NCBI RefSeq assembly: GCF_016653465.1
Contig: NZ_NHSQ01000084.1
Coordinates: forward strand, 1 to 64,000
Reading direction: 5' to 3'
DNA from: Thiocystis minor
Lineage (GTDB): Bacteria; Pseudomonadota; Gammaproteobacteria; Chromatiales; Chromatiaceae
Length of the DNA: 64,000 nt
In this document: piece by piece, positions 37,538 through 57,109 of the stretch
Position numbering within the stretch: position 1 is the stretch's first letter
Layout: each line of letters begins with the position of its first letter
Notes under the pieces: generated by a model
What the model was told of the DNA's origin: nothing
The model's database searches: none
The model's input: only the letters and a program-made list of their open reading frames with translations
Made by a program: the position numbers and the translations under genes

Positions 37538-37627
37538 CAACTGACAACTGACAACTGACAACTGACAACTGACAACTGACAACTGACAACTGACAACTGA
37601 CAACTGACAACTGACAACTGACAACTG
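37534..37627. repeat. Tandem heptanucleotide repeat (CTGACAA), about 13.4 copies
   Basis: Thirteen perfect CTGACAA units run without interruption from 37534 to 37624, plus CTG. The array fills almost the whole gap between the convergent MFS and pppA genes. Similar GTTGTCA heptamer arrays are known as short tandem repeats in cyanobacteria and elsewhere. The units are perfect, so the array is recent or kept uniform. Confidence 0.95.
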
Positions 37628-37636
37628 GAACGACTC

Positions 37637-38374
37637 TCACGAACAGCGGTAATCCATCACCACCGCCGTGACATTATCGCGCCCGCCCGCCTCGCAGGCC
37701 GCTTGGACCAGAGACTGGGCCGCTTCCCGAGGATCGGGTTGTTCAAGTATCCGTGCGATCCTGTCTTCTGTCAGTTCCTTGAGCAGCCCGTCGCTGCAAA
37801 GCAGATAGCGGTCGCCGTTCAGCAGCGCTTCGATGCGCCGGTCGACCTCCAGTTCGACATCGCCGCCGACCGCGCGGACCAGGACATTGGAGAGCGGGTG
37901 AAGATCCGCCTGCGCGCGTGTCAGCAAGCCCTGTTCGACCATTTCCTGGACCTGAGTGTGGTCGAGCGTGAGTTGGAGGAGTTCACCTTTGCGCAGCCGA
38001 TAGGCACGGCTGTCGCCGGCCCAGAGGATGGCGCAGTGATCGCCGACCGCAAGCACGGCGACGATGGTGCTGCCGATGATCTCGTCGCCTTGCCTGGCCG
38101 CTTCATCGACCAGGTGGCGGTTGGCGTCCTCGATGATCTTGCAGACGGTCTCGACGGTGGTGCCAAGCAGTTGCGGATAAGCGAGCCGGCCGAGCCGCTC
38201 GACGAGCAGACGGCTTGCCAGAGCGCCGTCGCGGTGACCGCCCATGCCGTCGGCGACGGCCCACAGCCCCAGATCCGGTCGCTCCAGATAGGCATCCTGG
38301 TTGACCTTGCGGATTCTACCGGTATCGGTCGCTCCGCCCGAGGCCCAGTGGCATTTGGGTACTCGCAACTTCAT
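37637..38374 (-). CDS. pppA: Type VI secretion PP2C-type phosphatase PppA
   Basis: From the ATG at 38374 the product has 245 residues with PP2C motifs: VNQDAYL, AVADGMGGH (metal Asp42), GSTIVAVL, WAGDSRAYR, LCSDGLLKEL and GGRDNVTAVV. PppA removes the phosphate that PpkA places on the FHA protein, switching secretion off. It is the last gene of the T6SS run and overlaps tagF by 4 bp. A longer upstream frame is only the shadow of tagF. Confidence 0.9.
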   Translation of the reverse strand: MKLRVPKCHWASGGATDTGRIRKVNQDAYLERPDLGLWAVADGMGGHRDGALASRLLVERLGRLAYPQLLGTTVETVCKIIEDANRHLVDEAARQGDEIIGSTIVAVLAVGDHCAILWAGDSRAYRLRKGELLQLTLDHTQVQEMVEQGLLTRAQADLHPLSNVLVRAVGGDVELEVDRRIEALLNGDRYLLCSDGLLKELTEDRIARILEQPDPREAAQSLVQAACEAGGRDNVTAVVMDYRCS

Positions 38375-39177
38375 GGCGCCTCCTGATCGAGAGGGTTGGA
38401 CGGAACCTCGCGCTTTTGGCGTTGTTCGTCGTGCCGAGTGGGACCGACGTCGGAACGCGCAAACTCCCACCAGCCCCCATTGCTCCAGTCGCCCCCGAGC
38501 AGTGCGCCGAAGCCATCCGGTGGCGGCAAACCCTGGCAGGTCAGAAAGGACGGCGCGACTCGATCCGAGCCACTCGACCACCAGAGGCTGTAAGCGCAGA
38601 ACATCTGATCGAGTGCCCGCGCAAGCAGGTTCGGGCAGGCAAGACGCACTTCCGCGGGCGAGGCTGCGGGCAGTCGCCAGGCGTTGGAGCGGGACGCGGC
38701 GACCGACGTTTGCCCGCCGCTGGCGAGGACAATGCCGTCCGGCGCGCCTAGCGCCATGGCCTCGGCATCGAAGGTTTCGACGGTGCAGTTGCCTTCGAGC
38801 CCGGTCAGCGCGAGCATCTCCGCGCGCTCGAACCAGGATGGTTCGCAGAGGAGGCCGAGAAGGTTGGTACCGGCGCTCAGCGGGCAGGCGAGGGTGAGCG
38901 GAAAATAGCGCCCGACGCGATCGACGCTCGGCATCAGCACGCCGGCCCAGGCATTCTGCCCGACGATTCCAGGGGTGAGGACGAAACGCCACAACGGACT
39001 GGTCAGGTAGATATCCAGCCAGTCATCGCCGAGTTGGGCCTGACTGTTCGCCAGGGATTCGCGCAGCCAAAGATCCCAGGGTTGGACGAATTCGGCCGGC
39101 AGACGACGGGTCAGGAAATCGCCGTGCTCCGGCAGCTTGCCGTAAAAACCTGGAGTGCCTTGAGCCTTGTCGTTCAC
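38371..39177 (-). CDS. tagF: Type VI secretion accessory protein TagF
   Basis: This 268-residue protein matches the TagF/DUF2094 family: PGFYGKLPEHGDFLTRRLP at the start, WDLWLRESL, YLTSPLWRFVL, VDRVGRYFPLTLA and SLWWSSGSD. In Pseudomonas TagF holds back T6SS activity after translation, acting through the FHA protein. Overlaps of 4 bp on both sides (tssM and pppA) show tight co-expression. Confidence 0.9.
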   Translation of the reverse strand: MNDKAQGTPGFYGKLPEHGDFLTRRLPAEFVQPWDLWLRESLANSQAQLGDDWLDIYLTSPLWRFVLTPGIVGQNAWAGVLMPSVDRVGRYFPLTLACPLSAGTNLLGLLCEPSWFERAEMLALTGLEGNCTVETFDAEAMALGAPDGIVLASGGQTSVAASRSNAWRLPAASPAEVRLACPNLLARALDQMFCAYSLWWSSGSDRVAPSFLTCQGLPPPDGFGALLGGDWSNGGWWEFARSDVGPTRHDEQRQKREVPSNPLDQEAP

Positions 39178-42100
39178 AACCGCTCCGGACAGCGAAACGC
39201 GCGCAATTCGCCGAGTTTGAAAGGATTGCGGACGCTGACCGCGCGCAGTTCAAAACGCGCGGATAGCCCGGCCAGCGAGAAGGTGACCTGGAATTTCTCC
39301 GGTTGACTGGTCGACTTCAGCGAGGACCGATCCAGCACCCGGAACCAGGCCCATGGACCTTCCTCGGTCAGGCTGGGGCCGCTTCCGGTCTCGTCGGCGA
39401 AGACCAGACGGACCCGCGCCGGACCGTCCGGAGCTGGCCATTGCAAGCGCTGACTGCGCGGCGGACCCTGGCGGTAATCGAGGATCTGCCCGCCGAGATC
39501 CAGAATAAACTGAGTCACGCGTGCATCCATGCTTTGGGGCTGGAGCTCGAATTCGACCGCCGGTGTCTTGCCGCCACCCATGAAGAAGGCTTCGCGGATC
39601 ACGGCCGCGCGCTGGAACTGCGCCAGCACCTCGTCCGGGATCCCGAGGTTGGCGTCGACCCAGCGCCATTTCGAGCGCGAGGTATTGGCGATCGGGGCCA
39701 GATTCTTCTTGAAAAAGGCATCGATCATGCCATCCGGGCCAAATAGACGACCAAAATCGAAGAGTGTCGTCTCGCGCGTGCTGCCCGGCGCGAAGGGATA
39801 GCGGTCGTTGATCGCCTCGCGGCAGAAGGGCAGAACCTCGGCGGTCCAGAGGCTGTTGAGTTGCGCGCGTAGGCCGCCGGCCGCGAGATTGGCGCTATCC
39901 TGCGCCAGGGTGCCGACCCATCCGCTGAGCGGCGCGGGAAGCTTGCTGGCGAGCGCCTTGGTTTCCTGGATCTCGGACATTTCTCCGGCGACCAGCAGAT
40001 CCCGCCCCGACACCACGGCGGCGGTCACGGAGGTCAGATGGAGTTCGAGCTTGCTCAGTGACGCCAGCACCTGGTCGATGGGCGCCTGGCCTTGTTCATT
40101 GGTCCGCACCAGATCATGCAGCCAGGTAAAGCGCCGCGTGACATAGGCCTCCGGTGCCTCTTCGACGGGAGCCTCTTGGGGCGTGTCGCCAAAATAACGC
40201 TCGATACGCTGACGAAAGCCGTCCTGCCGCGTTTCCGTTTGACCGGCTGCCGCGTCATCCGGCGCCGGTTTGCGATCGAGTTCGGTTTGCCGAGCGGCAT
40301 CGATCAGCAGACGGCGTAGCGGTGACTTGGCCGGATCGGCCAGCGTATTCGCCAGCAGGGCGGCCTGCTGCAGGTCGCGTGCCGCAACCAGTTCGATATC
40401 CTCAAGCAGACCCTGCCACTCGCTCACATAGTCGCGCAGATAGCGCTCGCGTACCTCTTCGAACAACTGGCGGGCTTCCGCGGATCCGGGCTGCAATCGG
40501 GCCGCCGGCCCAAGGATCCAGCTCTCCGCGGCGGCGGCCTCGATCAGACGGTTGCTCGTGCCCGCAAAGCCGCGATGATAGCCGTCGAACGTATAAAGCG
40601 CCGGGATGCCCTGGTTGAGCGGACGGCCGCTGCGACGGACGAAGACCAGCTTCGCGTATTCCCCGCCGGCGGCGCTGATGGTGAACTCAGCGCTGGCATC
40701 ACCCACGCCTTCGCGCTTGAGACGTTCATAGACGCGTGCGGCCAGTGGCGCGCGATTCAGAATCTCACGGGCATCCTGAATCAAAGCGCTATCGAGTTCG
40801 AGCGGCAGCGGAACCGGGCGCCGGTCGAGCAGCGACGCTAGATGTTCGCGCAGCGCTTCCTGTTGCTCGGTCGTGGTTTCGCGCGGCAGTCGGCTTTGCC
40901 AATCGCGCTCGACCCAGAGCTGAACCGCGGCCGGATCATAGCGTTCGTCGCTCCCCAGCATCAGATAGACGCGCAGTGCGTCATAGAGATAATCCGGCTC
41001 GCCGACGGCTTGGCGGATCTGTTCCTCAAGCCGCAGGATGACGCGCGGCAGCAGTGCTTTATTGAGGATGCGGCGATAGGCGCGCGCGGCCTGGGAGCCC
41101 AGCTTTTCGCCCTGATAAAGTCCGAATCCCAGGCTGAGCGGGACAGGATCGGAGCGTTCGGCGAAGCCGCGCGGAAGCGTCCGGGCGGCATCGAGCAGCG
41201 GCAGCACGCCGAGCGGATTGCGCTCCTCGGGCGCGAGCGCATCGATGCGGGTTTCGAGGTCGGCCACGCGCTCGGCCACCGCGTCGAGATAGGCGCGGTT
41301 GCCCGAATAGCTGGTGGCCCAGGCGGCTGCTGCCAGCAGAAAGACCGCCGCCGCGCCGGCATAGGCGCCGCGTCGCCGCCAGAGGCGGCGACGTTCCAGT
41401 CGGGGGTTGAGCCCGGCAAGCCCGGCCTCGCGAAAGATCACCTCGCGCAGCAGGCGGGTGATGAAAAAACTCTTGCCCGTCCCCTTAAAGGGCAACGGAC
41501 CCTGCCGGCCGAGACCGAAGTTGGCCGCGAAAGCGCTCAGAATGCGGTCGATCGGGGTTCCGGTCTGGGTTCCGCTCGTCAAATAGACGCCGCGCACCAG
41601 CGGTCGGATCTCGAAACGGGAGGGTGCGAAGGCATCGTTCAGGAAGCCTTCGAGCACCTCTCCGAGCGCCCCGAACTGGCGTGGAAAGCTGAACAGGAGC
41701 GTGCGTTTGCGCGGTTCGCGTTCCTGCTCCATCCGCGCCAGCAAGCGTTGATCGAGTCGTTCGGACAAACGCTTCATCTCGTCCGTAAAAGCCGCGATCG
41801 GGGTCGGCCCGTCCTCGCTCGGCGCGAATTCGAAGGTCATCCCCCAGACCTGCTCGCGTCCCTCCTGGCCAAGATCGGCAAAAAACTCGCTGAATCCGGC
41901 CACCAGATCCGCCTTCATGAACAGGACGTAGACGGGCACGGCGATCTGGAATGACTGGCACAGCTCCTGGACGCGCTGACGGATCGCTTGAGCATGGGCG
42001 CCGCGCTCCGACGGCGTTTGCTGCATCAGATCGGACAGGCTCACGGCCACCAGCACGCCATTGATGGGGCGGCGCGGACGATGCTTTTTCAGCAGATCGA

Positions 42101-42725
42101 GAAAATTCCGCCAGGCGGCCTTATCCACCTGCTCATAGCTGTCCTGAGTGGTGTAGCGCCCGGCGGTATCGATCAGCACCGCCTCGTCGGTGAACCACCA
42201 GTCGCAGTTGCGGGTACCGCCAATCCCCTGGATCGCGTTCTGACCCAGGCGTTCGGCGAGCGGGAAGCGGAGTCCCGAATGGATCAGCGCGGTCGTCTTG
42301 CCGCAACCGGGCGGCCCGATGATGAGATACCAGGGAAGCTGGTAGACCCAGCGCCCGCCCAGTTTGTTCTTGCCCTCGGATTGCTTGAGCGCGGCCAGGG
42401 CCTGATCGAAGCGTTCGCGGAGCGCGAGCAATTCTTCCTCGGAGGCCGCTTTGGCGGGATCGGGCGCTGGCTCGGGACCGGCGGCAAGCTGCTCCATCAG
42501 TTGGCGGTTGCGGATGCGCGCCCGCACCGCCGAGCCAATCTGGACCAGACCCCAGAGGCCGAACAGCGTTCCGATGACCATCCAGCGACGGAATGCGGGG
42601 GCCAGCGGTTCGACGCCGGCAATGCCGATGAGGGGGCCGACGAACCAGATTAGCAGCGCCAGCGCGACGATTCCGATCAGGGTCAGGAAGCGGCGTGAAA
42701 TGAAAAATCTCAGAAAGGATTTCAT
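39174..42725 (-). CDS. tssM: Type VI secretion membrane-complex protein TssM (IcmF)
   Basis: The 1183-residue protein has two N-terminal membrane helices (about 12-30 and 48-66), a cytoplasmic NTPase domain with Walker A GPPGCGKTT (137-145), a third helix (about 445-468) and a long periplasmic region. TssM spans the envelope and meets TssJ and TssL. The intact Walker A suggests it binds nucleotide. Length and order fit the family. Confidence 0.95.
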   Translation of the reverse strand: MKSFLRFFISRRFLTLIGIVALALLIWFVGPLIGIAGVEPLAPAFRRWMVIGTLFGLWGLVQIGSAVRARIRNRQLMEQLAAGPEPAPDPAKAASEEELLALRERFDQALAALKQSEGKNKLGGRWVYQLPWYLIIGPPGCGKTTALIHSGLRFPLAERLGQNAIQGIGGTRNCDWWFTDEAVLIDTAGRYTTQDSYEQVDKAAWRNFLDLLKKHRPRRPINGVLVAVSLSDLMQQTPSERGAHAQAIRQRVQELCQSFQIAVPVYVLFMKADLVAGFSEFFADLGQEGREQVWGMTFEFAPSEDGPTPIAAFTDEMKRLSERLDQRLLARMEQEREPRKRTLLFSFPRQFGALGEVLEGFLNDAFAPSRFEIRPLVRGVYLTSGTQTGTPIDRILSAFAANFGLGRQGPLPFKGTGKSFFITRLLREVIFREAGLAGLNPRLERRRLWRRRGAYAGAAAVFLLAAAAWATSYSGNRAYLDAVAERVADLETRIDALAPEERNPLGVLPLLDAARTLPRGFAERSDPVPLSLGFGLYQGEKLGSQAARAYRRILNKALLPRVILRLEEQIRQAVGEPDYLYDALRVYLMLGSDERYDPAAVQLWVERDWQSRLPRETTTEQQEALREHLASLLDRRPVPLPLELDSALIQDAREILNRAPLAARVYERLKREGVGDASAEFTISAAGGEYAKLVFVRRSGRPLNQGIPALYTFDGYHRGFAGTSNRLIEAAAAESWILGPAARLQPGSAEARQLFEEVRERYLRDYVSEWQGLLEDIELVAARDLQQAALLANTLADPAKSPLRRLLIDAARQTELDRKPAPDDAAAGQTETRQDGFRQRIERYFGDTPQEAPVEEAPEAYVTRRFTWLHDLVRTNEQGQAPIDQVLASLSKLELHLTSVTAAVVSGRDLLVAGEMSEIQETKALASKLPAPLSGWVGTLAQDSANLAAGGLRAQLNSLWTAEVLPFCREAINDRYPFAPGSTRETTLFDFGRLFGPDGMIDAFFKKNLAPIANTSRSKWRWVDANLGIPDEVLAQFQRAAVIREAFFMGGGKTPAVEFELQPQSMDARVTQFILDLGGQILDYRQGPPRSQRLQWPAPDGPARVRLVFADETGSGPSLTEEGPWAWFRVLDRSSLKSTSQPEKFQVTFSLAGLSARFELRAVSVRNPFKLGELRAFRCPERL

Positions 42726-44107
42726 CGGCCAATCCCCGCGATCGCGCCGACTTCGCCCTGACGGTGCGCCGGTGTCATCAGCATGACCTCCACCCGGCGG
42801 TTGCGGGCGTCCCTGGGGTTTTCCGGAACCAGCGGCTCGGTATCGGCGTGCCCCTCGGCCGTGAACCGTGCCGGGTTGCCCGTCACCTCAGCCAGCAGGT
42901 CGCGGACATGGAGCGCGCGTTCCTGCGAAAGGTGCCAGTTCGAGGGAAAACGCAACGTCTTGATGGGAACGCTGTCGGTGTGCCCGGTCACCAGCACCGC
43001 GCCCGGCAGTTGCGCCAGGGATTCGGCGATGCGCCGCAGCAGGGGAACGTAATCGGTTCTGATCAGACTGCTCCCGGAGGCGAACAGATCATCGCCACGG
43101 ACGATGACGGTCTGCCCCTGGGGCCGGTCGAGAACCTCCAGACGGCGCGCCGCGATGTCGTCGGCGAGCAGGATGCGCAGTGTCAGTGGCGTAGTCGCCT
43201 GGGGCCGATCCGGCGGTGTCGGCGCCTCGGCCAGGGGAATGCGGGGCCGGTCGGTCACCGCGGCCAGACCCGTGTCGAGGCTGCTCAGAGAGCGATAGAC
43301 GGGATCCGAGTCGCGGTTGAGCGCGAAGGTAAAATAGGTGAAGAGCCCCAGCAGAAGCAGCGCGCACACGGCTGAAAACACCCAGAGCGGGAGCCGATGG
43401 ACCAGCGGATCGCGCGATTCGGCGACACCTTTCCAGTGGGGCGAGAGTTCCGGCTCCGGATCTCCGCGCTGTACGCGGATGGTCTGAAAGAGTTGTTCGC
43501 GTACCCGATCGAGCTGGCTCCGGCCGTCCTCGCGCACCCGGTAGCGCCCCTCGAAGCCCAGCGCGAGACAAAGATACATGAGTTCCAGAAGATCAAGATT
43601 GCCGCTGGGATACGCCAGCAGACGGTCCAGCGCGGTGAAGAATTTTTCCCCGCCCCAGGCCTCGTTGTGGAAGCTGATCAACAGCCCGCGATTGCTCCAG
43701 ACGCTCTGACTGCCCCAGGGGGTGTCCAGCACGGATTCATCGATCAATGAACACAGGACATAACGCGCGGGCAGTACCACGGCATCCGCCAGACCTTTCG
43801 CGCGCGCGCAGGATTCGAACTCGCGCACCTGGCGGATTAGCCCATCGCGCAGACCCTCGGGATCCGGATGGGAGGGGGCGCCGCGCACTTGGGCCGCGAC
43901 GGTCAGGAGTCCGGTCGCGCATCCCGCGAGGGGGTTGTTCATGCACACCGGCAGCGCGTCGAGGCGCCCGTTCGCTGGGATGCTGGACAATGCCGGAGAG
44001 ACCGGAGGCGGCGGCGCTTGACCAGGACCGCGACGGCCGCCGGGGATGGGGCGGATGACCGTGGGTCCGGCGTCGCCGGGTATCAGAAAAGGATCCTCGT
44101 CGGTCAT
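42722..44107 (-). CDS. tssL: Type VI secretion protein TssL with C-terminal OmpA-like domain
   Basis: The 461-residue protein has a DotU/TssL domain (about 55-235: LPARYVLCSLIDESVL, FFTALDRLL, YLCLALGFEGRYR), one membrane helix (239-263) and an OmpA-like peptidoglycan-binding domain (about 335-445: VTGHTDSVPI, LSQERALHVRDLL, NRRVEVML). This evolved form anchors the complex to the wall itself. It overlaps tssM by 4 bp. Confidence 0.95.
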   Translation of the reverse strand: MTDEDPFLIPGDAGPTVIRPIPGGRRGPGQAPPPPVSPALSSIPANGRLDALPVCMNNPLAGCATGLLTVAAQVRGAPSHPDPEGLRDGLIRQVREFESCARAKGLADAVVLPARYVLCSLIDESVLDTPWGSQSVWSNRGLLISFHNEAWGGEKFFTALDRLLAYPSGNLDLLELMYLCLALGFEGRYRVREDGRSQLDRVREQLFQTIRVQRGDPEPELSPHWKGVAESRDPLVHRLPLWVFSAVCALLLLGLFTYFTFALNRDSDPVYRSLSSLDTGLAAVTDRPRIPLAEAPTPPDRPQATTPLTLRILLADDIAARRLEVLDRPQGQTVIVRGDDLFASGSSLIRTDYVPLLRRIAESLAQLPGAVLVTGHTDSVPIKTLRFPSNWHLSQERALHVRDLLAEVTGNPARFTAEGHADTEPLVPENPRDARNRRVEVMLMTPAHRQGEVGAIAGIGR

Positions 44108-44110
44108 GAC

Positions 44111-45445
44111 TTACTCGCGAATCGCCCAGAGTTCCAATTCGAGCGCGGGGAACTCTCCGCCGATGTGCAGGCCGAAACCGCCACCCGTCACCAGTTGTTT
44201 CCAATACTCGCTGTTGCGGTCCAGTTCGAAATAATCGCAACCCGCATGAAAGGGAATCTCCAGCGGGGCGGTCGGCATCGGACGCAGCGCGATTCCGGGC
44301 AGGGCCAGTTTGACCAGCTCCTGGATCTTTTCCACCGGTCCGACCTTGGTCTGCGTGGGGAGGCGATTGCGCAGCGTCTGCGAGTCCAGATTGGCCCGGG
44401 CGGCGAGCACGAATCGAGAACCGGCGAGCAGCGATCGATCATCCACCAGCGCGATGCGGAAGCCGAATTGACGCTCCTGGATCGGGATGGCGATGGCGCG
44501 CTCGACATATTCGCGATTGAGGTATTCGCGCAGTCGCCCGATCAGCGGCGTGTAACTGGCATCCAAATCCTCATGCCGATAGGGCGGAAACTCCGGGGGC
44601 CGCTTGGTCTCGCTGGCAAAGGTCGCGAGTTCGCCGGCCAAACCGAGCAGGGTGCGATAGACGGCCTCCGGATGCAGACCGCTGACCTGGGTCAAATGCA
44701 GGACAACGGGTTCGGCCCGATTCATTAATTGGAGCAGTAGAAAATCGGACCAGTCGGCCACCCCGCCATGACCGACGCCACGCACCCGCCCGGCGCGCGC
44801 TTCGGCCTGACGATGGAGCAGGCCGGCCAGTTCCTCGATAAAATCGGCCAGCCGTCGCGACACCTGGAGATCGACACACGGCGGAATATAGGATGCGTCG
44901 AGTGTCACCTGCCGATCCGCCCGGCATTCGAGCACCCGGCCGACGCCGCAACAGGCATAGCCTTCGCGGGACTGACGCTCCAGCAGGAGGCGCAGATCGA
45001 GCCGCCCGATCGCGAGCGGGGTTTCGGTGTCCGAGCCTAGCGTATTGTCGCGCACCGTCAATTCGCCGGAGCGATAGCGCAGGATGGTCTCGGTCTCGCC
45101 GGGACCGCCGCTCTCGGCGGCCCCAGGGCGGCGCAGCGGCAGGGCGAGATAGATGGTTTGGGGGGCGATGTTCTCGTCGAAATCCAGCGGCTGGGGCAGC
45201 GGGTCGCTCGCCGGGGCGTCGAAGGGCGTGCCGTCGGGTAACGTGCCCGCGACCTCGCTGAGCGCGAACTTCCCGAAGGCGAGCAGTTCCCCGTCGATGC
45301 GCAGACGCCGCAAACCCCAGGCGAAAGGGACGCCGAGACCCGATTTGGCCCCGACCAGACGCTCGATGTAACGGTCGTGCTGCTGGAAATGTTGTGGCTG
45401 AAGGAAGAGACCCTCGGACCACAGCACCTTGTTGTCCCAAGCCAC
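44111..45445 (-). CDS. tssK: Type VI secretion baseplate protein TssK
   Basis: This 444-residue protein opens with VLWSEGLFLQPQHFQQHDRY, the family's signature. TssK is a trimer that joins the baseplate to the TssJLM membrane complex. It lies 3 bp before tssL and about 10 bp after tssJ. It is the only baseplate subunit encoded in this window. Confidence 0.95.
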   Translation of the reverse strand: MAWDNKVLWSEGLFLQPQHFQQHDRYIERLVGAKSGLGVPFAWGLRRLRIDGELLAFGKFALSEVAGTLPDGTPFDAPASDPLPQPLDFDENIAPQTIYLALPLRRPGAAESGGPGETETILRYRSGELTVRDNTLGSDTETPLAIGRLDLRLLLERQSREGYACCGVGRVLECRADRQVTLDASYIPPCVDLQVSRRLADFIEELAGLLHRQAEARAGRVRGVGHGGVADWSDFLLLQLMNRAEPVVLHLTQVSGLHPEAVYRTLLGLAGELATFASETKRPPEFPPYRHEDLDASYTPLIGRLREYLNREYVERAIAIPIQERQFGFRIALVDDRSLLAGSRFVLAARANLDSQTLRNRLPTQTKVGPVEKIQELVKLALPGIALRPMPTAPLEIPFHAGCDYFELDRNSEYWKQLVTGGGFGLHIGGEFPALELELWAIRE

Positions 45446-45455
45446 GGCGCGCTCC

Positions 45456-45941
45456 TTATTGGTGACGGATCGAGATGGCGCGGGCGCCGACCTCGACCAG
45501 AAGTGTGTTGTCCACCGCGGGATTCAGACGCATCAGATCGCGCCAACGCGCGCGGTCAAGATCGCGGAAGGCCGCGATGACGCCGATATAGGTGGCTTCT
45601 GGATTGAGCGGGCGAGCGATCGGCAGAAACTGACCGGGGGCCAGGGTGACCTCGTCGCGGGCAATCAGATCGCCTCCCAGCACTTCTTGGTCGCGATCGT
45701 AGAGACTGAAAAAATCCGCCTTGGAAAAGACGCCGTGGCTTTTGAGTTCGTAGAGGCGCACCACCACGGCCAATGCCCTGCCGCCCGGACCTCGATTGGC
45801 ATCGGCTGACGCGACGATCTGGAGACTCAGTTGCGGCGGCGGTTTCGCGTCCTTCGGCTCCGGCGCTTGAGGTTTGCTCCCGCAGCCCGGAAGGGCGGCG
45901 AGGGCGAAGACAAGAATCGACAGGACGAGAGGCGCACTCAT
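45456..45941 (-). CDS. tssJ: Type VI secretion lipoprotein TssJ
   Basis: From the ATG at 45941 the product has 161 residues with a lipoprotein signal (lipobox LPGC, Cys20). A transthyretin-like TssJ domain follows: LSLQIVASADANRGPGGRAL, VVRLYELKSHGVFSKADFFSLYDR and LLVEVGARAISI. It anchors TssM at the outer membrane. An in-frame extension to 46022 would destroy the signal peptide. Confidence 0.92.
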   Translation of the reverse strand: MSAPLVLSILVFALAALPGCGSKPQAPEPKDAKPPPQLSLQIVASADANRGPGGRALAVVVRLYELKSHGVFSKADFFSLYDRDQEVLGGDLIARDEVTLAPGQFLPIARPLNPEATYIGVIAAFRDLDRARWRDLMRLNPAVDNTLLVEVGARAISIRHQ

Positions 45942-46232
45942 GATCGACCCAAGTCTGTCGCTGAAACGGTTGTCCAATGCAAAATCCTCTCGTGTCCGGA
46001 CCCGTGGCTGAGTATGGCCCAAAATCGTCCGCCAGTAGCGGCCAAAGCGCGCCCAGAGCGATAAACGTCGTTTCGTGGCTCTTCAACTCCCTTTTCGTCA
46101 TGACAGACGTTTGGCGGGGGGCGGTTTAAGGATTCAAAAAATAAATGATTTAAACCGCGTCGACGCCGATGTTGCAAAGGGATGCCAAACTGGCTGACAA
46201 CTGAAAACGATGCATGCCGTGACAGACGCGGT
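45942..46232 (-). other. Spacer between tagH and tssJ carrying repeat copy B
   Basis: The 291-bp gap holds no gene. A single half-end GGGGCGGTTTAAGG lies near 46119-46132, and the complete inverted-end repeat is at 46150-46236. A promoter for tssJ onward may lie between 45942 and 46110, since the rest of the run has overlapping genes. Confidence 0.45.
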
Positions 46233-46236
46233 TTAA
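46150..46236. repeat. Intergenic inverted-end repeat, copy B (87 bp)
   Basis: It is bounded by TTAAACCGCGTC (46150-46161) and GACGCGGTTTAA (46225-46236), a perfect 12-bp inverted repeat. The inner right side CATGCCG resembles copy A. The right end supplies the TAA stop of tagH (46233-46235), as copy A does for dolP. Confidence 0.8.
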
Positions 46237-47714
46237 TCCTGATGGGAGGCGCGCAGCTCGGCGAGGTGCCGGATCTGCTCCCGGTAGGCGCGCGCGAAGG
46301 CGTCGTCGAAAAGCTGCATGAAGTCCTCGGAGGCATCGGCGGCAACCTGTTCGTAGGTCTCGGTGAAGAGATCCCAGTATCTGGCCTTGCGCGCCATCGG
46401 CAGCACCTGATCGAGCCCCGAGCGACGGCTGAGACGGCGTTCGAGCTGGTCCGGCTCGAAGCGGGCAAAGAGTGCGCGCAGGGCGGCCTGCAAACCCGCC
46501 GTCATCGCCATTTCGTGCGCCTGGATATCGTCGAATGCCTCTCTCGCCGCTGTGAGCGCCGGCAGATAACCCGGACTTGGGCGAAGCAGGAGACGTTCCA
46601 GCAGATCGGTCGTATCGACGGAAAATTTGAACGGGTTGTTTTCCGCGGCACGAATCGTCGTGACGCCCAGGCGCAATTCGCTCTTGAATTGGGCGCGCGT
46701 CATCATGGTCTGAGTGAGCCCGGTGGCGAGGACGCGCAGCAATTCGCCGGCCTGACGGAGCAACCCCTCCGGGTCTTCGACATCGGCGGATTTGCCCACG
46801 CCGAGGCCGGCCAGAAAGGCATCCAATTCTCCAGTCGCCGGCGCCTGTTGGTGGAGCATGGGCTTGGGGCGCGGGGGCGCGGGCCGTCGTGGCGGAGCGG
46901 CATCGAATGGCGTGTCCTCGGGAGCGGGCGAGGGCCGCTCCTGGGCGTCGAGGACCGCTGGGCGCGGCGGCTCGGGACTCGCTGGAGCGGCTTCGGGGTG
47001 TGCCGGCTCCGCCGTGTCGCCCGGACTGCCCCAGGCATCGTTCAGCAGATCGTAATCGTCAGGCACGGGTAGGCGATCGGCCGGACGATAAAACACATGC
47101 TCGACGGGCGTCTGTCGATGCGGCACCTCCGGAGCCGACGCCTCCGGCGCGGGACCGGACAGCGCGTCATCGAGCGGCGAGGCATCGGCGAACAGGTCAT
47201 CGGCCAGATGGCGTTCGACCGGTCGCCGCGGCTCTTTCGGCGCTGATCCGGCTGGGTTGTCGCCGGAGCGTCCGTCGGGAGCGAGCAGGTCCAGGATATC
47301 GGTCGTAGCGCCGACCTGGTCCAGTCCCGGCAGGTCTTCCGAGTCCAGGCTTGCGAAAGGATCGGCGTCGAGCCTCGCGGGCGGCGCGGCGCTTGAGCCG
47401 ATCGTGACGATGATTTCGAAGGGGCCGATGGTTAGTCGGTCGCCGTCATACAGCGCCATGGATTGATGCGATGGCAATGGCTCGACAGCATGGTTCAGAT
47501 AGGTCCCGTTGCGGCTGGTATCGGTGATCCAGACACCGCCATCGCGCGCGTCGATGCGCGCGTGCTGACCCGAGATCACCCGCTCCGGGTCTTCGAGGCA
47601 CAGATCGTTGGTGGGGCTGCGTCCGATGGTGACGCCGCCCTCGGCCAGATTCCGATGAACGTCCCACTCGGGCGGCTGGGCCTGGCGGTTGACGAGATGA
47701 AGGTCGATCTCCAT
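46233..47714 (-). CDS. tagH: FHA-domain type VI secretion protein TagH (Fha)
   Basis: The 493-residue protein has an N-terminal FHA domain (about 27-95: VTIGRSPTNDLCLEDP, VISGQHARI, TSRNGTYLN), a long proline- and aspartate-rich linker (about 115-300) and a conserved C-terminal T6SS-FHA domain (about 310-485: LLRQAGELLRVLATGL, RAQFKSELRLGVTTIRAAENNPFKF). The FHA domain reads phosphothreonine set by the kinase encoded divergently. Its stop codon lies inside repeat copy B. Confidence 0.92.
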   Translation of the reverse strand: MEIDLHLVNRQAQPPEWDVHRNLAEGGVTIGRSPTNDLCLEDPERVISGQHARIDARDGGVWITDTSRNGTYLNHAVEPLPSHQSMALYDGDRLTIGPFEIIVTIGSSAAPPARLDADPFASLDSEDLPGLDQVGATTDILDLLAPDGRSGDNPAGSAPKEPRRPVERHLADDLFADASPLDDALSGPAPEASAPEVPHRQTPVEHVFYRPADRLPVPDDYDLLNDAWGSPGDTAEPAHPEAAPASPEPPRPAVLDAQERPSPAPEDTPFDAAPPRRPAPPRPKPMLHQQAPATGELDAFLAGLGVGKSADVEDPEGLLRQAGELLRVLATGLTQTMMTRAQFKSELRLGVTTIRAAENNPFKFSVDTTDLLERLLLRPSPGYLPALTAAREAFDDIQAHEMAMTAGLQAALRALFARFEPDQLERRLSRRSGLDQVLPMARKARYWDLFTETYEQVAADASEDFMQLFDDAFARAYREQIRHLAELRASHQD

Positions 47715-47874
47715 GCATTGGCTCCCCGAACCAAAACCGCTCTGATCGAGCGCATCATACGAGAGATCCGCGACTGGATGCGACCGTGCTTGAAGGCGGC
47801 ATTATGGGAAAGTATAACCGAGCCGGCCTCCAACCCAAGAATCGCGGTTGCTCCCCAGTGACGGCGTGGCTAGG

Positions 47875-50800
47875 ATGCAGCGGGTCAGCCCCGACCTTTC
47901 ATGCCTTTATCCCGCGGACATCAGCGACTCAGTGAAGATCCCCGGCTATACGATTATTCGCGAGCTTGGCAGCGGCGGGATGGCGACGGTCTATCTGGCG
48001 CGTCAGGATCGGCTGTCGCGCGATGTTGCCTTAAAGGTGATGAAACCGCTGGCCATCGCGGGCGACGATTTCACCTCCCGCTTCATCAAGGAAGGGCAGA
48101 TCATTGCCCAACTCCAGCACCCCCAGATCGTCACCATCTTCGATTTCGACTCGACCGACGGCTACCATTATTTCTCCATGGAATATCTTCCGGGGGGGAC
48201 GCTGGCGGACGAGATCGGCAAAGGGCTGTCGACCGCGCGCGCGATCGCGATTACGAAAAAAATCGCCGAGGCGCTCGCGGTCGCCCATGCGCGGGGCGTC
48301 ATCCATCGGGATGTCAAACCGCAGAATATCCTGTTCCGCGCCGATGGCACCCCGGTTCTGACCGATTTCGGCATCGCGAGGGCAGTGAAAAGCAACGCCG
48401 ATTCGATGCAGTTGACCAGTTATGGGATGGTCATCGGCAGTCCCCGCTACATGAGTCCGGAGCAGAGTACCGGCCAACCGCTCGATGCGCGCTCGGATCT
48501 GTACAGTCTGGGCGTGGTGTTCTACGAGATGCTGACGAATCAACTGCCGTATCAGGCGGACGATGTCGTGAGTCTCGCCATGAAGCATTGCTCCGATCCG
48601 ATTCCCCGCCTGCCCGATCACCTGGCAGTCTACCAGCCCATCCTCGACAAACTGATCGCTAAGAAACCGCAGGACCGCTTCGCCAGTGCCGGTCAGCTCA
48701 TTCGCGCGCTGGAGGTTTCCGAGAGCGAAACCCGCGCCACTGGCGCGAATGACGAGGCCACCCGACTGGTCGTCCGGGGCGCCGAGGAGCGGACAAAGAC
48801 CGCGAGCCAGGGCCGAAGTCATGCCGATCGGACGGGTTTGCGACTCCTGGGAGCTGTCCTGGTGCTGATGTCGCTCGCGGGAGTCGGCCTCTATCTCGTG
48901 CTGCGGACGCAGGACGATCTGCCCGCCGAGCCCAGCATCGCCGAGCGGCTGCCCGCGGCCCGCGCGGACCGCGCGGAGACCGCCACTCAATATGAAAAAC
49001 TCGCCATCGAACATGTCCAGAAGGCGCAATACGAACAAGGCATGGAACTCGTCAGGCTGGGACTCTCGATGACGCCGGACGATACCCGGCTGGGCGCCTT
49101 GAAATCACTGATTCAGGATCGGATCGAGGTCGAGAAACAGCTCGGCGCGGCGCGGGAATTGTTGCGTGAAAACCTGCTCGACGAGAGCCTGGCGCTGGTC
49201 GAATCCGGTTTGCAGCGCGTTCCTGACCATCCTGATCTGATCGCGCTGCGCACCGAGCTTCAGGAGCGTCTCGCTCGGCGTACGCGCAGTCAGGCCGACG
49301 CCCTGCTCGCGCGCGCCCGCTCCAGCGTCGAGACCGGACAGTTCGACGACGCTCTAGCTCGGGTGCGCGAAGGACTCGGGCTGGTGCCGGACCACCCTGG
49401 ACTCCTACAACTGCAAACGCTGGCGCAGCGCGCCATGGAACGGCGCGAGGCCATCCAGGAATCGATTCGTCAGGCGACCAGTCTGCTGGCATCGGAAACC
49501 CTGGCCGAGAGCATTGCGTTCATCGACCGCGCGCTGGAAGCGGCGCCCCATGAGACGCAGTTGCTGGATCTGCGCGCGACGGCGGAAAAACAGTTGCAAA
49601 GACAACGCGAGAAGACGGTGGCCGAGCTGTTCGAACAGGCGCGGGGATTGATGTCGGAGGGGGATTTTCAGCGCTCGCGCTCGCTCATCGAGGAAGGCTT
49701 GCGGATCGACCCCGACCATCTCCAATTGAAGACCCTGCGCGATGAGGTCGGCGCCGCGCAGGCGCGGCGGCTTCAGCGGCAGGCGGACGAACTCTTGGGC
49801 AAGGCGCAACGCCTGTTTGAGAAGCAAGAGTATGACGCCGCGCTCGATCTCATTGGCGAAGGCCTGAGTCTCGCGCCGGAGCATGCGGGTCTGGCTGGAC
49901 TGCGCGCTCGGATCGCCGCGGTGCATCAGGCCGAGAACCGCATCGCTCAAGTCTTGCAAGACTGCGAGCGGCAATTCCCGCTCACCGAACGCTCGGCGGA
50001 GACCGGCGCGCTCGCCGCGAAGTGTTACCTTCAGATCCTGACACTCGATCCAACCAATGCGCAGGCTCTGGAGCATCTCCAGAAGATCGCGGATCTGATC
50101 GCGGAGCAAGTCGAATCCTTATTGCAGTCCCATCGGCTCGACGATGCAGAGCGCGCCCTGGAACAATTGCAATCGCTCGCTCCAGCGCACCCGACACTGA
50201 CCGCACTGCGGGATGATTTGAAGAAGCGCCGAGAATTATCTCCGACGATGATCGACATCGCGGGCGGTTGTTTCGAGATGGGCAGTCCTCCCACGGAAGC
50301 GGGACGCGAGGACGACGAGCGTCAGCATCAGGTCTGCGTCAAGGCTTTTCGGCTCGGTCAATTCGAGCTCTCGGTCGCCGAATTCAAACGGTTTACCAAG
50401 GCGAGCGGCTATCAGACCGACGCGGAGCAGGACGTTGGCGGTTGGGATGGCTGCTGGGCGCTGGATCAGGAGCAGACCACGGCCTGGGGCTATCAGCCCT
50501 GGGCCAGTTGGCTGAAGCCGAACAAATATCAAACGGTGCGGGATCAGGATCCAATCAGTTGCGTCAGTTGGAACGATGCTCAAGCCTATCTGCGATGGCT
50601 GAATCAGGAGACCGGCGGCGCCTTTCGTTTGCCGACCGAGGCGGAATGGGAGTACGCGGCGCGCGCGGGTTCGACGACATCGCGTTTTTGGGGCGACGCA
50701 ATCGACGCGAGCGCCTGCCGCTATGCGAATACCGCCGACGCCGGGCATGGCTGGGCGGACGGCTTTCCCTGCAACGATCAGCAGGAATGGGTCGCCCCGA

Positions 50801-51078
50801 TCGGGAGTTTTGAACCCAATGCCTGGGGCTTGAACGATCTGCTCGGCAATCTCTGGGAGTGGACCTGCTCGGAGTATGACGCCGCCTACAACGGGACCGA
50901 ACGGGTCTGTGCGCCCAGCGCCTCGGATGCCGCCCGCATTCTGCGCGGCGGCGCCTGGAACAGCGGGCCGGGTCCGGTGCGCTCCGCCTACCGCAACCGG
51001 AACTTTCCCGAGTCGCGCTATAACTTCGTTGGCTTCCGGCTTGCCCATGACGCCCCCGCCGCGCCCGAGGCGCGCTGA
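47875..51078 (+). CDS. Membrane Ser/Thr protein kinase (PpkA-like) with TPR-like repeats and SUMF1-like domain
   Basis: The product has about 1067 residues. A Hanks-type kinase domain (about 25-285) carries GSGGMATVYL, ALKVMK, HRDVKPQN (144-151) and DFG (164-166), so it should be active. One membrane helix (about 322-343) is followed by six or seven TPR-like helical repeats of about 62-65 residues (360-780, each with an EGL-x-P-x-H core). A C-terminal SUMF1/FGE-like domain covers about 790-1055. The latter lacks the catalytic cysteines of formylglycine-generating enzyme (WNSGPGPVRSAYRN), so it is probably a binding domain. Location beside tagH and pppA makes it the T6SS activating kinase. The start is uncertain; GTG at 47932 fits the family equally. 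Confidence 0.88.
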   Translation: MQRVSPDLSCLYPADISDSVKIPGYTIIRELGSGGMATVYLARQDRLSRDVALKVMKPLAIAGDDFTSRFIKEGQIIAQLQHPQIVTIFDFDSTDGYHYFSMEYLPGGTLADEIGKGLSTARAIAITKKIAEALAVAHARGVIHRDVKPQNILFRADGTPVLTDFGIARAVKSNADSMQLTSYGMVIGSPRYMSPEQSTGQPLDARSDLYSLGVVFYEMLTNQLPYQADDVVSLAMKHCSDPIPRLPDHLAVYQPILDKLIAKKPQDRFASAGQLIRALEVSESETRATGANDEATRLVVRGAEERTKTASQGRSHADRTGLRLLGAVLVLMSLAGVGLYLVLRTQDDLPAEPSIAERLPAARADRAETATQYEKLAIEHVQKAQYEQGMELVRLGLSMTPDDTRLGALKSLIQDRIEVEKQLGAARELLRENLLDESLALVESGLQRVPDHPDLIALRTELQERLARRTRSQADALLARARSSVETGQFDDALARVREGLGLVPDHPGLLQLQTLAQRAMERREAIQESIRQATSLLASETLAESIAFIDRALEAAPHETQLLDLRATAEKQLQRQREKTVAELFEQARGLMSEGDFQRSRSLIEEGLRIDPDHLQLKTLRDEVGAAQARRLQRQADELLGKAQRLFEKQEYDAALDLIGEGLSLAPEHAGLAGLRARIAAVHQAENRIAQVLQDCERQFPLTERSAETGALAAKCYLQILTLDPTNAQALEHLQKIADLIAEQVESLLQSHRLDDAERALEQLQSLAPAHPTLTALRDDLKKRRELSPTMIDIAGGCFEMGSPPTEAGREDDERQHQVCVKAFRLGQFELSVAEFKRFTKASGYQTDAEQDVGGWDGCWALDQEQTTAWGYQPWASWLKPNKYQTVRDQDPISCVSWNDAQAYLRWLNQETGGAFRLPTEAEWEYAARAGSTTSRFWGDAIDASACRYANTADAGHGWADGFPCNDQQEWVAPIGSFEPNAWGLNDLLGNLWEWTCSEYDAAYNGTERVCAPSASDAARILRGGAWNSGPGPVRSAYRNRNFPESRYNFVGFRLAHDAPAAPEAR

Positions 51079-51094
51079 GGGCGTCGCTGCTCCG

Positions 51095-52060
51095 CTACTG
51101 GGCCTGGGTCAGTTGGCGCGAGGTATCCAGCAAGGCGCGGTATTGCTCGTTCCTTGTCAGTTCCAGCTTGCCCAGTTGCGCGGTCTTGCCCGGGTCGCTG
51201 GATTTCCCCCCGGCGGACTCGCTCTGCTTGAGCTGTTGTATCGCATGCACTTCCCGGCGCACCCGGTCGGCCTCGCTCGCGGCATCGCGACGCTGACTCT
51301 CGGCCTGGCGTTGCAGGGCGGCCTGATCCGGGCCGGGGGCGGCCGGGGCGGTTGCGGGGCGGCTCGGCTGGCTGGCCGAGGCTTTTCGTAATTGCTGACG
51401 CAGCGACGCGGCGACCTGATTCCGCAGCGCGAGCTCACGCTTGAATGCCGCCTGCTGGGCCTTGAGCGTCGATTCGAAAATGAGCCGATCAGACGTCAAA
51501 CCCGCCGCCCGTCGATACCAATCCAGCGACTGCGTCTTGTCCTGCGGCACGCCCAGCCCGCGCTCATACAGCGATCCCAGATTCGTCTGCGCCGGCGCGT
51601 GGTTCTGCTCGGCCGCCTTGCGATACCAATTGGCGGCGCTTGCATAATCGGGAACGGCCAGCCCCAGACCTTTTTCGTAAATCTCGCCCACGTAGGTCTG
51701 CGCGACCGGATCTCCGCCCTGGGCCTTGGGGAGCAGGGTCTGAAGCGCACTGCTGTAATCGGAGCGATCGAACAGCACGAATTCGCCGCCGCGGATCGCG
51801 CAATCGGACTTGGTCGACTTGACCGACCGACGCGGCGCCAGATAGGTCATCCGCGTTCCAAGTTGGCGGATCTGACCGGGCAGGAGACAATCGACGAGGA
51901 CGAAATCATCGATTCCCTTGCCGGGCGCGATGGGAGTGATGGCAGCTTGTCCGGTTTCCAGGTCGCCACTCCCGGGCGCGCTGGCGCACCCCAGCAGGCT
52001 CAGGAGGAGCGGGATCGTGATGACGGTCAGAACCGATCGCATTGACTTGTCTTGTGTCAT
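51095..52060 (-). CDS. Sel1-repeat lipoprotein
   Basis: The 321-residue protein has a lipoprotein signal (LSLLGC), two Sel1-like repeats (about 115-185: AQTYVGEIYEKGLGLAVPDYASAANWYRKAAEQ and its successor, shown in part) and a long charged, probably coiled-coil C-terminus (200-321). Sel1 repeats bind proteins. It converges on the kinase gene, 16 bp from its stop, so a link to the T6SS is possible but unproven. No catalytic domain is seen. Confidence 0.75.
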   Translation of the reverse strand: MTQDKSMRSVLTVITIPLLLSLLGCASAPGSGDLETGQAAITPIAPGKGIDDFVLVDCLLPGQIRQLGTRMTYLAPRRSVKSTKSDCAIRGGEFVLFDRSDYSSALQTLLPKAQGGDPVAQTYVGEIYEKGLGLAVPDYASAANWYRKAAEQNHAPAQTNLGSLYERGLGVPQDKTQSLDWYRRAAGLTSDRLIFESTLKAQQAAFKRELALRNQVAASLRQQLRKASASQPSRPATAPAAPGPDQAALQRQAESQRRDAASEADRVRREVHAIQQLKQSESAGGKSSDPGKTAQLGKLELTRNEQYRALLDTSRQLTQAQ

Positions 52061-52459
52061 GACAAACGCCCTTGAAGATTCCCAAGGTAGAGTCTAAACC
52101 ACGTACTGAGCGAAGCGCGTCGTTTTTGCGTCGTGCCTGTTCGTCGGCGATCGCCAACGATTGGTGGGTCGAACGCTAAAAAGTCTCTTCGAATGACCGT
52201 GCGGAATCCCGCTCGAACAGGGGTTGACAATGTCCGCCCGCCTGTGGAATTGTCCTGAAAAGGCGACGTGCCATCCATGCCTCATCCGCTCCGGCGTCGC
52301 GCATGAAGATTTTCGAAAGCAGAGACATTTCAATTTTCGCGATCGTTTGATCCGGAAGATTTCTCTCCACGCAACGTGGGGGCATTGTGTGCCATGGTGC
52401 TGAAAAAACACATTCCAATTGGGGTCATGGCATTGGGTCTGACTTACCTGGGGGCTCAC
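52061..52459 (+). promoter_or_regulatory. Regulatory spacer upstream of the autotransporter-like gene
   Basis: This 399-bp gap contains a near-perfect 20-bp palindrome centred on GGCGATCGCC (52142-52161). It also has TTGACA (52224-52229) with TGGAAT at 52245-52250, a weak promoter with a short 15-bp spacer. The frame of the next gene is open from 52376, but codon use is unlike that of the gene until about 52460, so I treat this as untranslated. Confidence 0.4.
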
Positions 52460-55069: not shown

Positions 55070-55186
55070 GGCAGCGTCTGGCGCATCCGAAGACGAGTTC
55101 TTGACCGCTCGCGGCGCTGGCTCCGATTGCCTGATGTGGGAGTCGCCCGAGCTTTCCGGAAGCCCGGGATGCGAATGGCCTTGGCG

Positions 55187-55215
55187 CAAGGGGCGGGTTG
55201 CAACCCCGCCCCTTG
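55187..55215. terminator. Strong hairpin between the convergent autotransporter and phaR genes
   Basis: CAAGGGGCGGGTT and AACCCCGCCCCTTG form a GC-rich stem of about 13 bp with a 2-nt loop and one bulge, followed by TCCGTTTA. It probably ends transcription from the left and perhaps from phaR on the right. Confidence 0.7.
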
Positions 55216-55289
55216 TCCGTTTATCGCGTGCAATGGCGCTAGGTGATGTGAAGCCTTGGGCTTGGGTATGAAGTTTCCCGGAAATCGCC

Positions 55290-55763
55290 TTAAACCGCAT
55301 CGTCCTTTTTCTTGCGTTCGCCGCCGAACTCGAAGCGGGCCGCGCGCAGGAAATCCTTTTGGAGGTCGGCCCAGATCTCGACATTTTTCTGGGTCATGCG
55401 GCTCATGGCCTCGAAGGGGTTTTCGGTCCAGGATTGGGTCATCTCCTGCTGCTGTTTGGCGAAGAGATCGAGCGAGGTTTCCAGGTAGCGGGCGAACATG
55501 CCCTGGAGAGTGCCGCCATAGAAGCGGATGATTTGGGCGAGCATGGTGGCGCTGAAGAGCGGTTCGCCGCCGGTTTCTTCTTCAAGCATGATCTGGAGCA
55601 GGATGGAGCGGGTGATGTCGCTGTCGTTGGCCGTATCGACGACCTTGATGCTGGTGCAGTTCATCACGAGTGCGCGGACATCGGAAAGGGTGATGTAGCG
55701 ACTGACCTCGGTGTCATAGAGACGGCGGTTCGGGTACTTCTTGATGAGACGCTCGCTGTTCAT
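55290..55763 (-). CDS. phaR: Polyhydroxyalkanoate synthesis regulator PhaR
   Basis: From the ATG at 55763 the product has 157 residues. The conserved N-terminal DNA-binding domain begins RLIKKYPNRRLYDTEVSRYI, and PHB-binding accumulation-regulator domains follow (about 10-110). PhaR binds both PHA granules and DNA and represses phasin and synthesis genes until polymer appears. A GTG two codons earlier is possible. Repeat copy C ends 7 bp upstream of the ATG, and no Shine-Dalgarno is visible. Its own stop lies in GCGGTTTAA, the same motif as the repeat ends. Confidence 0.92.
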   Translation of the reverse strand: MNSERLIKKYPNRRLYDTEVSRYITLSDVRALVMNCTSIKVVDTANDSDITRSILLQIMLEEETGGEPLFSATMLAQIIRFYGGTLQGMFARYLETSLDLFAKQQQEMTQSWTENPFEAMSRMTQKNVEIWADLQKDFLRAARFEFGGERKKKDDAV

Positions 55764-55769
55764 GGTCAC

Positions 55770-55858
55770 TTAAACCGCGTTCGGCATGGTCTGCAAAATG
55801 TTGTGCATGGCTTATTGACTCGTCCGCGCCAACTTGCGTCGGCGCTAACGCGGTTTAA
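55770..55858. repeat. Intergenic inverted-end repeat, copy C (89 bp)
   Basis: TTAAACCGCGTT (55770-55781) and AACGCGGTTTAA (55847-55858) form a perfect 12-bp inverted repeat, differing from other copies by a paired C-to-T/G-to-A change. It lies directly upstream of phaR. A further half-end TTTAAACCGC is at 55869-55878. Confidence 0.8.
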
Positions 55859-55924
55859 ATTTTCATCATTTAAACCGCAATCACCAGGGGAAACTCGCGA
55901 CAGCGGATTCCCCCGGACTTCGCG

Positions 55925-57109
<1,185 letters not shown>

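Follow-up and report, generated by a model that had tools for sequence, protein, structure and literature searches.

PpkA of the Pseudomonas aeruginosa H1-T6SS is a Ser/Thr kinase with a periplasmic part that belongs to the threonine-phosphorylation pathway and works with an FHA protein and PppA (PMC6082577, PMC12607579); it possesses a vWA domain (PMC1262709). PpkA is activated by TagR, a protein that acts upstream of it in the periplasm, probably via direct contact with the PpkA periplasmic domain (PMC6082577), and PA0071 (tagR1) carries the annotation of an FGE-sulfatase domain protein (PMC7253367). The periplasmic domain of Serratia marcescens PpkA is distinct, so a vWA domain is not universal in PpkA-type kinases (PMC6082577). 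Known inputs to T6SS kinases are the TagQRST system of P. aeruginosa and the RtkS protein of Serratia (PMC6082577, PMC10482370), RtkS being a periplasmic input to PpkA in a species without TagQRST (PMC6082577), and other inputs have been described for A. citrulli and S. marcescens (PMC12607579, PMC6082577; see also PMC2660368, PMC3608642 and PMC6838775). A kinase and an FGE domain are also combined in one chain, without a known T6SS link, in a Chlamydia kinase with a DUF323/NirV domain (PMC1262709) and in cyanobacterial and other fusions (plasmid records H31, H32, H34 and H35, which cover 36–51 % of the kinase described below). No title found in the open-licence literature described a T6SS kinase with an FGE domain.

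The window analysed here, a stretch of 64 000 nt from Thiocystis minor, contains a gene in which a Ser/Thr kinase and an FGE/SUMF1-like cap are fused beside a T6SS cluster. By analogy with TagR activating PpkA, we think it rather likely that the product is a PpkA-like kinase of T6SS threonine phosphorylation to which a TagR-like sensor, a pseudoenzyme, has been joined in cis. The locus is a variation on a known control switch and not a new kind of system; the new details are the cis FGE cap, its family-specific cysteines, the exchange of a kinase domain and a Sel1-repeat neighbour.

The kinase gene and its T6SS locus

One frame encodes the kinase domain, a hydrophobic segment, a TPR-like stalk and the FGE/SUMF1-like cap (Table 1). 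Reading the sequence showed the kinase domain to have the glycine loop and the Lys, HRD and DFG motifs. Where translation starts is uncertain: three related proteins (L052, L055 and L057) start at, or directly beside, the counterpart of an alternative start, GTG 47932. A reading of this DNA made from the letters and open reading frames (the sequence-only reading) had described a kinase with a SUMF1-like end, and the Pfam matches at the two ends of the frame bear this out. It had also set the protein apart from known PpkA kinases by its lack of a vWA domain; none was present among the Pfam matches, so that a TPR-like stalk and an FGE-like cap stand where P. aeruginosa PpkA has a vWA domain (PMC1262709). 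The closest NCBIfam match of the kinase half was the PknB/Stk1 family, at 298 bits against a cut-off of 450. No plasmid record covered at least 80 % of the kinase, and no Rfam families were found in positions 36000–56000.

Table 1. Features of the kinase gene and the adjoining T6SS cluster in the window
Feature	Position	Strand	Evidence or remark
pppA-like PP2C phosphatase	37637..38386	-	PP2C match; upstream start not fixed
tagF	38371..39177	-	
tssM	39174..42725	-	
tssL, OmpA-like end	42722..44107	-	
tssK	44111..45445	-	
tssJ lipoprotein	45456..46022	-	
tagH/Fha, FHA-domain T6SS protein	46233..47714	-	TIGR03354, E 2e-92
Ser/Thr kinase–membrane helix–TPR-like stalk–FGE/SUMF1-like cap	47875..51078	+	Single 1067-aa frame, uninterrupted
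Protein kinase domain, residues 25-270	47947..48684	+	Pfam Pkinase, E 2e-48
Predicted single membrane helix, residues ~321-343	48835..48903	+	One strong hydrophobic segment
TPR-like stalk, predicted periplasmic	48955..50235	+	Pfam TPR families, structure model, self-comparison
FGE/SUMF1-like cap, residues 790-1057	50242..51045	+	Pfam FGE-sulfatase, E 2e-54
Position of two FGE catalytic cysteines	50962..50979	+	S1030 and V1035 instead
Sel1-repeat lipoprotein	51095..52060	-	Lipobox LLGC; convergent with the kinase

The cluster has the order pppA-tagF-tssM-tssL-tssK-tssJ-tagH, followed by the kinase gene, which is divergent from tagH at a distance of 160 bases. ClpV of the same genome is encoded on a different contig, and, as regards tagQ, tagS and tagT, no ABC-transporter match was obtained among the neighbouring frames scanned. 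With its FHA protein, PP2C phosphatase, TagF and T6SS core genes, the locus resembles that of PpkA-type kinases, and TagH is the likely substrate or reader of the kinase. In the PpkA-like reading, the probable target of the cytoplasmic kinase domain is TagH (or TssL), from which PppA would strip the phosphate, and TagF would oppose assembly. The predicted topology would place the stalk and cap, which lie C-terminal to the helix, in the periplasm, where they would replace a vWA domain and a separate TagR as the kinase's own input. Two kinases would pair, and thereby be switched on, once the stalk or the cap had bound a ligand or a partner, for which the adjoining Sel1-repeat lipoprotein is a possible candidate. 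The sequence-only reading had suggested that the periplasmic part may sense wall or surface ligands and trigger secretion; no ligand was indicated by any of the present results.

The stalk and the FGE/SUMF1-like cap

The structure prediction suggested as a check by the sequence-only reading returned TPR-like repeats and an FGE fold. The AlphaFold model of the stalk and cap (9 rows) was of moderate confidence, with a mean pLDDT of 75. It showed six clear repeats, followed by more degenerate helices up to about residue 787; the repeat helices start at residues 386, 435, 490, 543, 598 and 653 (model renumbered by +346), and each repeat comprises one 14-residue helix and one of roughly 30 residues. 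The repeat of about 63 residues proposed earlier was not recovered. Self-comparison of residues 361–690 gave instead a period of about 55 aa, with peaks at lags 55 (0.33) and 108 (0.16; 1000 shuffles, best of any lag about 0.00), and lag 63 ranked 71st of 110. Lags 53–55 or 108 were within the best four in all six relatives compared, ranking fourth in L054, the shuffle control being that of the window kinase only. When the whole stalk-and-cap model was searched with VIA-align, FGE chains ranked first (Z up to 13.5) and TPR rows appeared at Z of only about 10 with large rmsd; the label ‘TPR-like’ is therefore drawn from Pfam and Foldseek.

Modelled alone (48 rows), the cap had a pLDDT of 94.4. 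VIA-align matched it to the FGE entry 2aii (Z 30.7, 2.8 Å, 252 residues), to a PvdO structure (Z 30.6) and to 1y4j, Sulfatase modifying factor 2, a paralogue of human FGE (Z 29.3). The fold is thus common to the cap, SUMF1 (formylglycine-generating enzyme) and the 1y4j paralogue, but SUMF1 has a catalytic Cys pair, whereas the cap lacks the pair and is part of a membrane kinase. The absence of the catalytic cysteines had been anticipated from the sequence, and no active-site Cys pair was found in the cap. The description of the domain as ‘cysteine-less’ was, however, wrong, as it contains eight cysteines (residues 799, 821, 860, 896, 948, 966, 998 and 1012), each of which was kept in all eight family rows of a 48-row FGE alignment and, by position, in one to seven of the 40 other rows. 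These cysteines may form disulfides. The catalytic pair was absent from all eight family rows and present in seven of the 40 others; since it was missing in 41 of the 48 rows, losing it says little by itself. Judged by the missing pair, the cap appears to be a catalytically dead FGE/SUMF1-like pseudoenzyme.

Two other functions were considered for this part of the protein. The cap could be an active enzyme of another chemistry that, like PvdO, modifies a periplasmic substrate, given that PvdO, named as a dihydropyoverdine dehydrogenase, ties with its best structural matches. We regard this as very improbable, because the match to the PvdO model was far under the curated cut-off (129.8 versus 500 bits) and the FGE catalytic cysteines are absent. 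The stalk and cap might, secondly, serve as a scaffold rather than a switchable sensor and hold in place, at the membrane complex, a kinase that is constitutively active, as could be suggested by the protein length, which varies from 879 to 1247 aa (with assumed starts). This is also improbable, although less so, since the cap keeps many positions, including the eight cysteines, that a mere spacer would not need, and since the separate activator of PpkA in P. aeruginosa is itself an FGE-domain protein (PMC6082577, PMC7253367).

By analogy, TagR would be the closest parallel to the cap; neither TagR nor the Sel1-repeat neighbour figures in the sequence-only reading. The likeness of the two FGE-sulfatase domains is one of annotation (PMC7253367), and TagR is a separate protein, whereas the FGE domain of the window is fused to the kinase. 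In a search for a fluorescent Pseudomonas that could supply TagR, none of 369 genomes passed the cut-off of the PvdO model. No PDB chain named TagR was listed when the family profile or the separate FGE frame of L086 served as query. Another separate FGE protein, L147, had no T6SS cluster within 20.8 kb, with one weak tssL-like match in its flanks. If the PpkA-like reading holds, the built-in TagR-type fold would let the T6SS sensing step be tested on a single protein.

FGE domains serve as DGR targets in Thiohalocapsa (PMC10907252), and on reading the sequence the C-terminal stretch of the cap looks like a DGR variable repeat. A role as DGR target was rejected, as no template copy was found elsewhere in the genome (a 219-base query matched only itself at length, the next best match being 23 bases, E 0.08) and the stretch was strongly conserved among seven aligned sequences rather than hypervariable.

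Distribution of the kinase family, PppA and the Sel1 neighbour

The family was assembled from a search of 54 genomes, from fetched regions and from a named scan (best 80 of 552). It has nine members: the window kinase, L051 (genome G004), L052 (G005), L053 (G024), L054 (G032), L055 (G025), L056 (G029), L057 (G021) and L120 (G399, an uncultured Chromatiaceae MAG). L053 ends at a contig end before the cap, and L120 was the sole locus to join the family among the best 80 of 552 in the named scan.

T6SS core genes adjoin the kinase in four of the nine members (the window, L051, L053 and L056), and in four members, among them L056 with its replaced kinase domain (see below), the kinase is divergent beside tagH. 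Six of the nine genomes contain a T6SS. The cluster of G005 lies more than 2 Mb from the kinase and that of G021 is on another contig; both hold tagH, tssJ, tssK, tssL, tssM, tagF and pppA, and no kinase frame was present in the stretches fetched. tssM was undetected in G025, G032 and G399. tssK was absent too in G025 and G032 (each 99 % complete); for G399, of unknown completeness, the result concerns tssM, and an FHA gene is still divergent from the kinase in this MAG. Given these three genomes in which no tssM was detected, the family cannot be called T6SS-only, and its dedication to T6SS is incomplete. The T6SS link claimed by the sequence-only reading therefore stands for four of nine members by position and six of nine by genome, and is not seen in the three genomes without detectable tssM; the order kinase-TPR-SUMF1 beside tagH, which it proposed to look for in other genomes, recurred in L051 and L056 but not in all members. 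That reading had named a Cys pair in the cap or no T6SS link as grounds for its refutation; the former was not found and the link was not lost in full.

PppA orthologues with 56–100 % identity were found in all six T6SS-bearing family genomes. A seventh genome, G018, has a PppA orthologue at 49 % and a T6SS cluster that holds a related kinase, the frame of which stopped at 408 aa and gave no FGE match. The main PP2C match was just 35–40 % in G025, G032 and G399, and also in G003 and G006, two genomes of the same genus with T6SS clusters in which pppA is not beside tagF and in which the window kinase had, as its top match, a mere kinase domain at 39 %. The G003 assembly, with a completeness of 88 % and a contamination of 14 %, also carries a 49-residue piece matching PP2C at 49 %. 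The pattern, from few genomes and one family, fits a kinase and PppA that act together on the T6SS where a T6SS exists.

A Sel1-repeat lipoprotein gene is convergent to the kinase in six of the eight members with a visible downstream flank (the window, L051, L052, L054, L056 and L057; L053 was left out), and a lipobox is visible in all six. The neighbour is kept in L054, from a genome without T6SS, and no Sel1 match was found near the kinase at L055 and L120. The lipoprotein is a possible envelope partner of the kinase, and a precedent for a Sel1 protein acting on a membrane sensor is ExoR, which binds ChvG and affects T6SS in Agrobacterium (PMC3460628).

These distributions can also be read as those of a Ser/Thr kinase with a general role in envelope sensing in this bacterial family, partnered by the Sel1 lipoprotein, in which case adjacency to tagH would be secondary and T6SS at most one output. 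Such a kinase could be retained without tssM, as in G025, G032 and G399, its Sel1 neighbour would be expected to persist in the T6SS-free G032 as in the other five members, and its kinase half would resemble PknB/Stk1, which is the best match here, albeit below the cut-off. We nevertheless consider this explanation rather unlikely, because the PppA orthologue and the T6SS occur together in every one of the six T6SS-bearing family genomes, because four members remain divergent beside tagH, one of them with a replaced kinase domain, and because two members have no Sel1 match near the kinase. The three members without tssM, and the T6SS clusters remote from the kinase in G005 and G021, also count against the PpkA-like reading.

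Kinase exchange and a second set of fusions

The kinase of G029 (L056) is encoded by one open frame of 1206 aa, in which the cap is of the family type (64 % identity) and the kinase domain matches at 29 %. In a kinase tree of 40 rows this kinase domain fell into a five-member group (100/100, starred), which it shared with L096 (the kinase of a T6SS region), a non-T6SS kinase-FGE protein and two further kinases from the genome of the window, and was apart from the family kinase clade (97/88, starred). The cap stayed within the family (97/83, starred; inner fork 98/86, starred) in an FGE tree of 63 rows, which used 35 of 79 ‘other’ rows (the first 22 and 13 random ones) and had long branches for L004 and one L123 row and odd composition in three rows of the second set described below. 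By these trees, the kinase domain has been swapped in G029 and the stalk and cap retained. A stalk and cap that are kept while the kinase is replaced, in a gene still beside tagH, are as would be expected of a portable sensor. Kinase domains exchanged under a constant stalk and cap also provide a natural experiment on which traits the sensor by itself specifies.

Among the 369 genomes searched in the class, 48 contained tagF, which occurred at 51 places. Of these regions 40 were fetched, the other eleven being that of the window itself and ten weaker matches. A kinase frame was present in 20 of the 40, in some cases not close to the cluster and in two cut by the region edge. In nine regions (L086–L089, L092, L095, L097, L101 and L102, some of them near relatives of each other) the same kinase frame ends in an FGE match, which was partial by Pfam in the members scanned, and at L082 the FGE match lies in the next, overlapping frame. 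This second set shares with the window kinase a kinase, a hydrophobic segment and an FGE-like end near pppA-tagF-tssM, but belongs to different kinase and FGE groups, and its kinase lies after pppA and is not divergent from tagH. In both trees it fell outside the window family, with support of 92/94 (not starred) in the FGE tree, so that, by this evidence, an FGE end would have been joined to T6SS kinases more than once; alternatively, a single ancient kinase-FGE origin may have been followed by kinase replacement.

A broader proposal, which we put forward tentatively and at less than even confidence, is that the FGE-fold pseudoenzyme serves the T6SS threonine-phosphorylation pathway generally as a portable input, acting in trans as TagR in P. 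aeruginosa and in cis on unrelated kinases at least twice in other lineages, where one kinase has been exchanged beneath it. If so, the role of recognising a lipoprotein partner or envelope damage would fall to the cap.

Two further observations from the kinase comparisons count against the PpkA-like reading: the kinase domain is no near relative of those in the second T6SS set, and no FGE match was obtained for L058 and L059, the nearest kinases beyond the family. At L059, and also at L062, the Sel1 protein next to the kinase carries a fused caspase-like domain.

Motifs and possible sensor domains of other kinases in or near T6SS clusters

Repeated DKTRI-like motifs were read from the sequence N-terminal to the kinase domain in three of the second-set kinases, those of regions L087, L101 and L102, and are candidate phosphothreonine sites for an FHA reader. 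A single Cache domain together with a HAMP domain, possibly another sensor type, was carried by two kinases, one inside a T6SS cluster (L091) and the other about 8 kb from one (L080).

Caspase-like domains

Two Sel1-repeat proteins fused to a Peptidase_C14 (caspase-like) domain both adjoined kinases related to the window kinase, and one of them (L059) sat within a T6SS cluster. The kinase frames of L084 and L085 lay about 4 kb from a T6SS-cluster pppA; L084, the one of the pair scanned with Pfam, had a C-terminal caspase-like domain. Caspase-like, PEGA and FGE domains were combined in a single protein of an Aeromonadales MAG (L121).

Coordinates of the features in the window and in other regions
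Region	Positions	Strand	Feature
L059	10076-12433		Sel1/Peptidase_C14 fusion
L062	2081-4855		Sel1/Peptidase_C14 fusion
L080	690-2474		Cache/HAMP kinase
L084	2306-4888		Kinase frame
L085	2347-4932		Kinase frame
L091	13588-15309		Cache/HAMP kinase
L121	6438-8456		Caspase-like/PEGA/FGE protein
Window	52376-55069	+	Autotransporter-type frame

Other genes of the window genome

Immediately past the Sel1 lipoprotein gene, the window has an 897 aa frame in which Pfam identifies an autotransporter beta-domain at E 6e-66. Reverse transcriptase (RVT_1) matches were present at nine places in the same genome (L111-L119).
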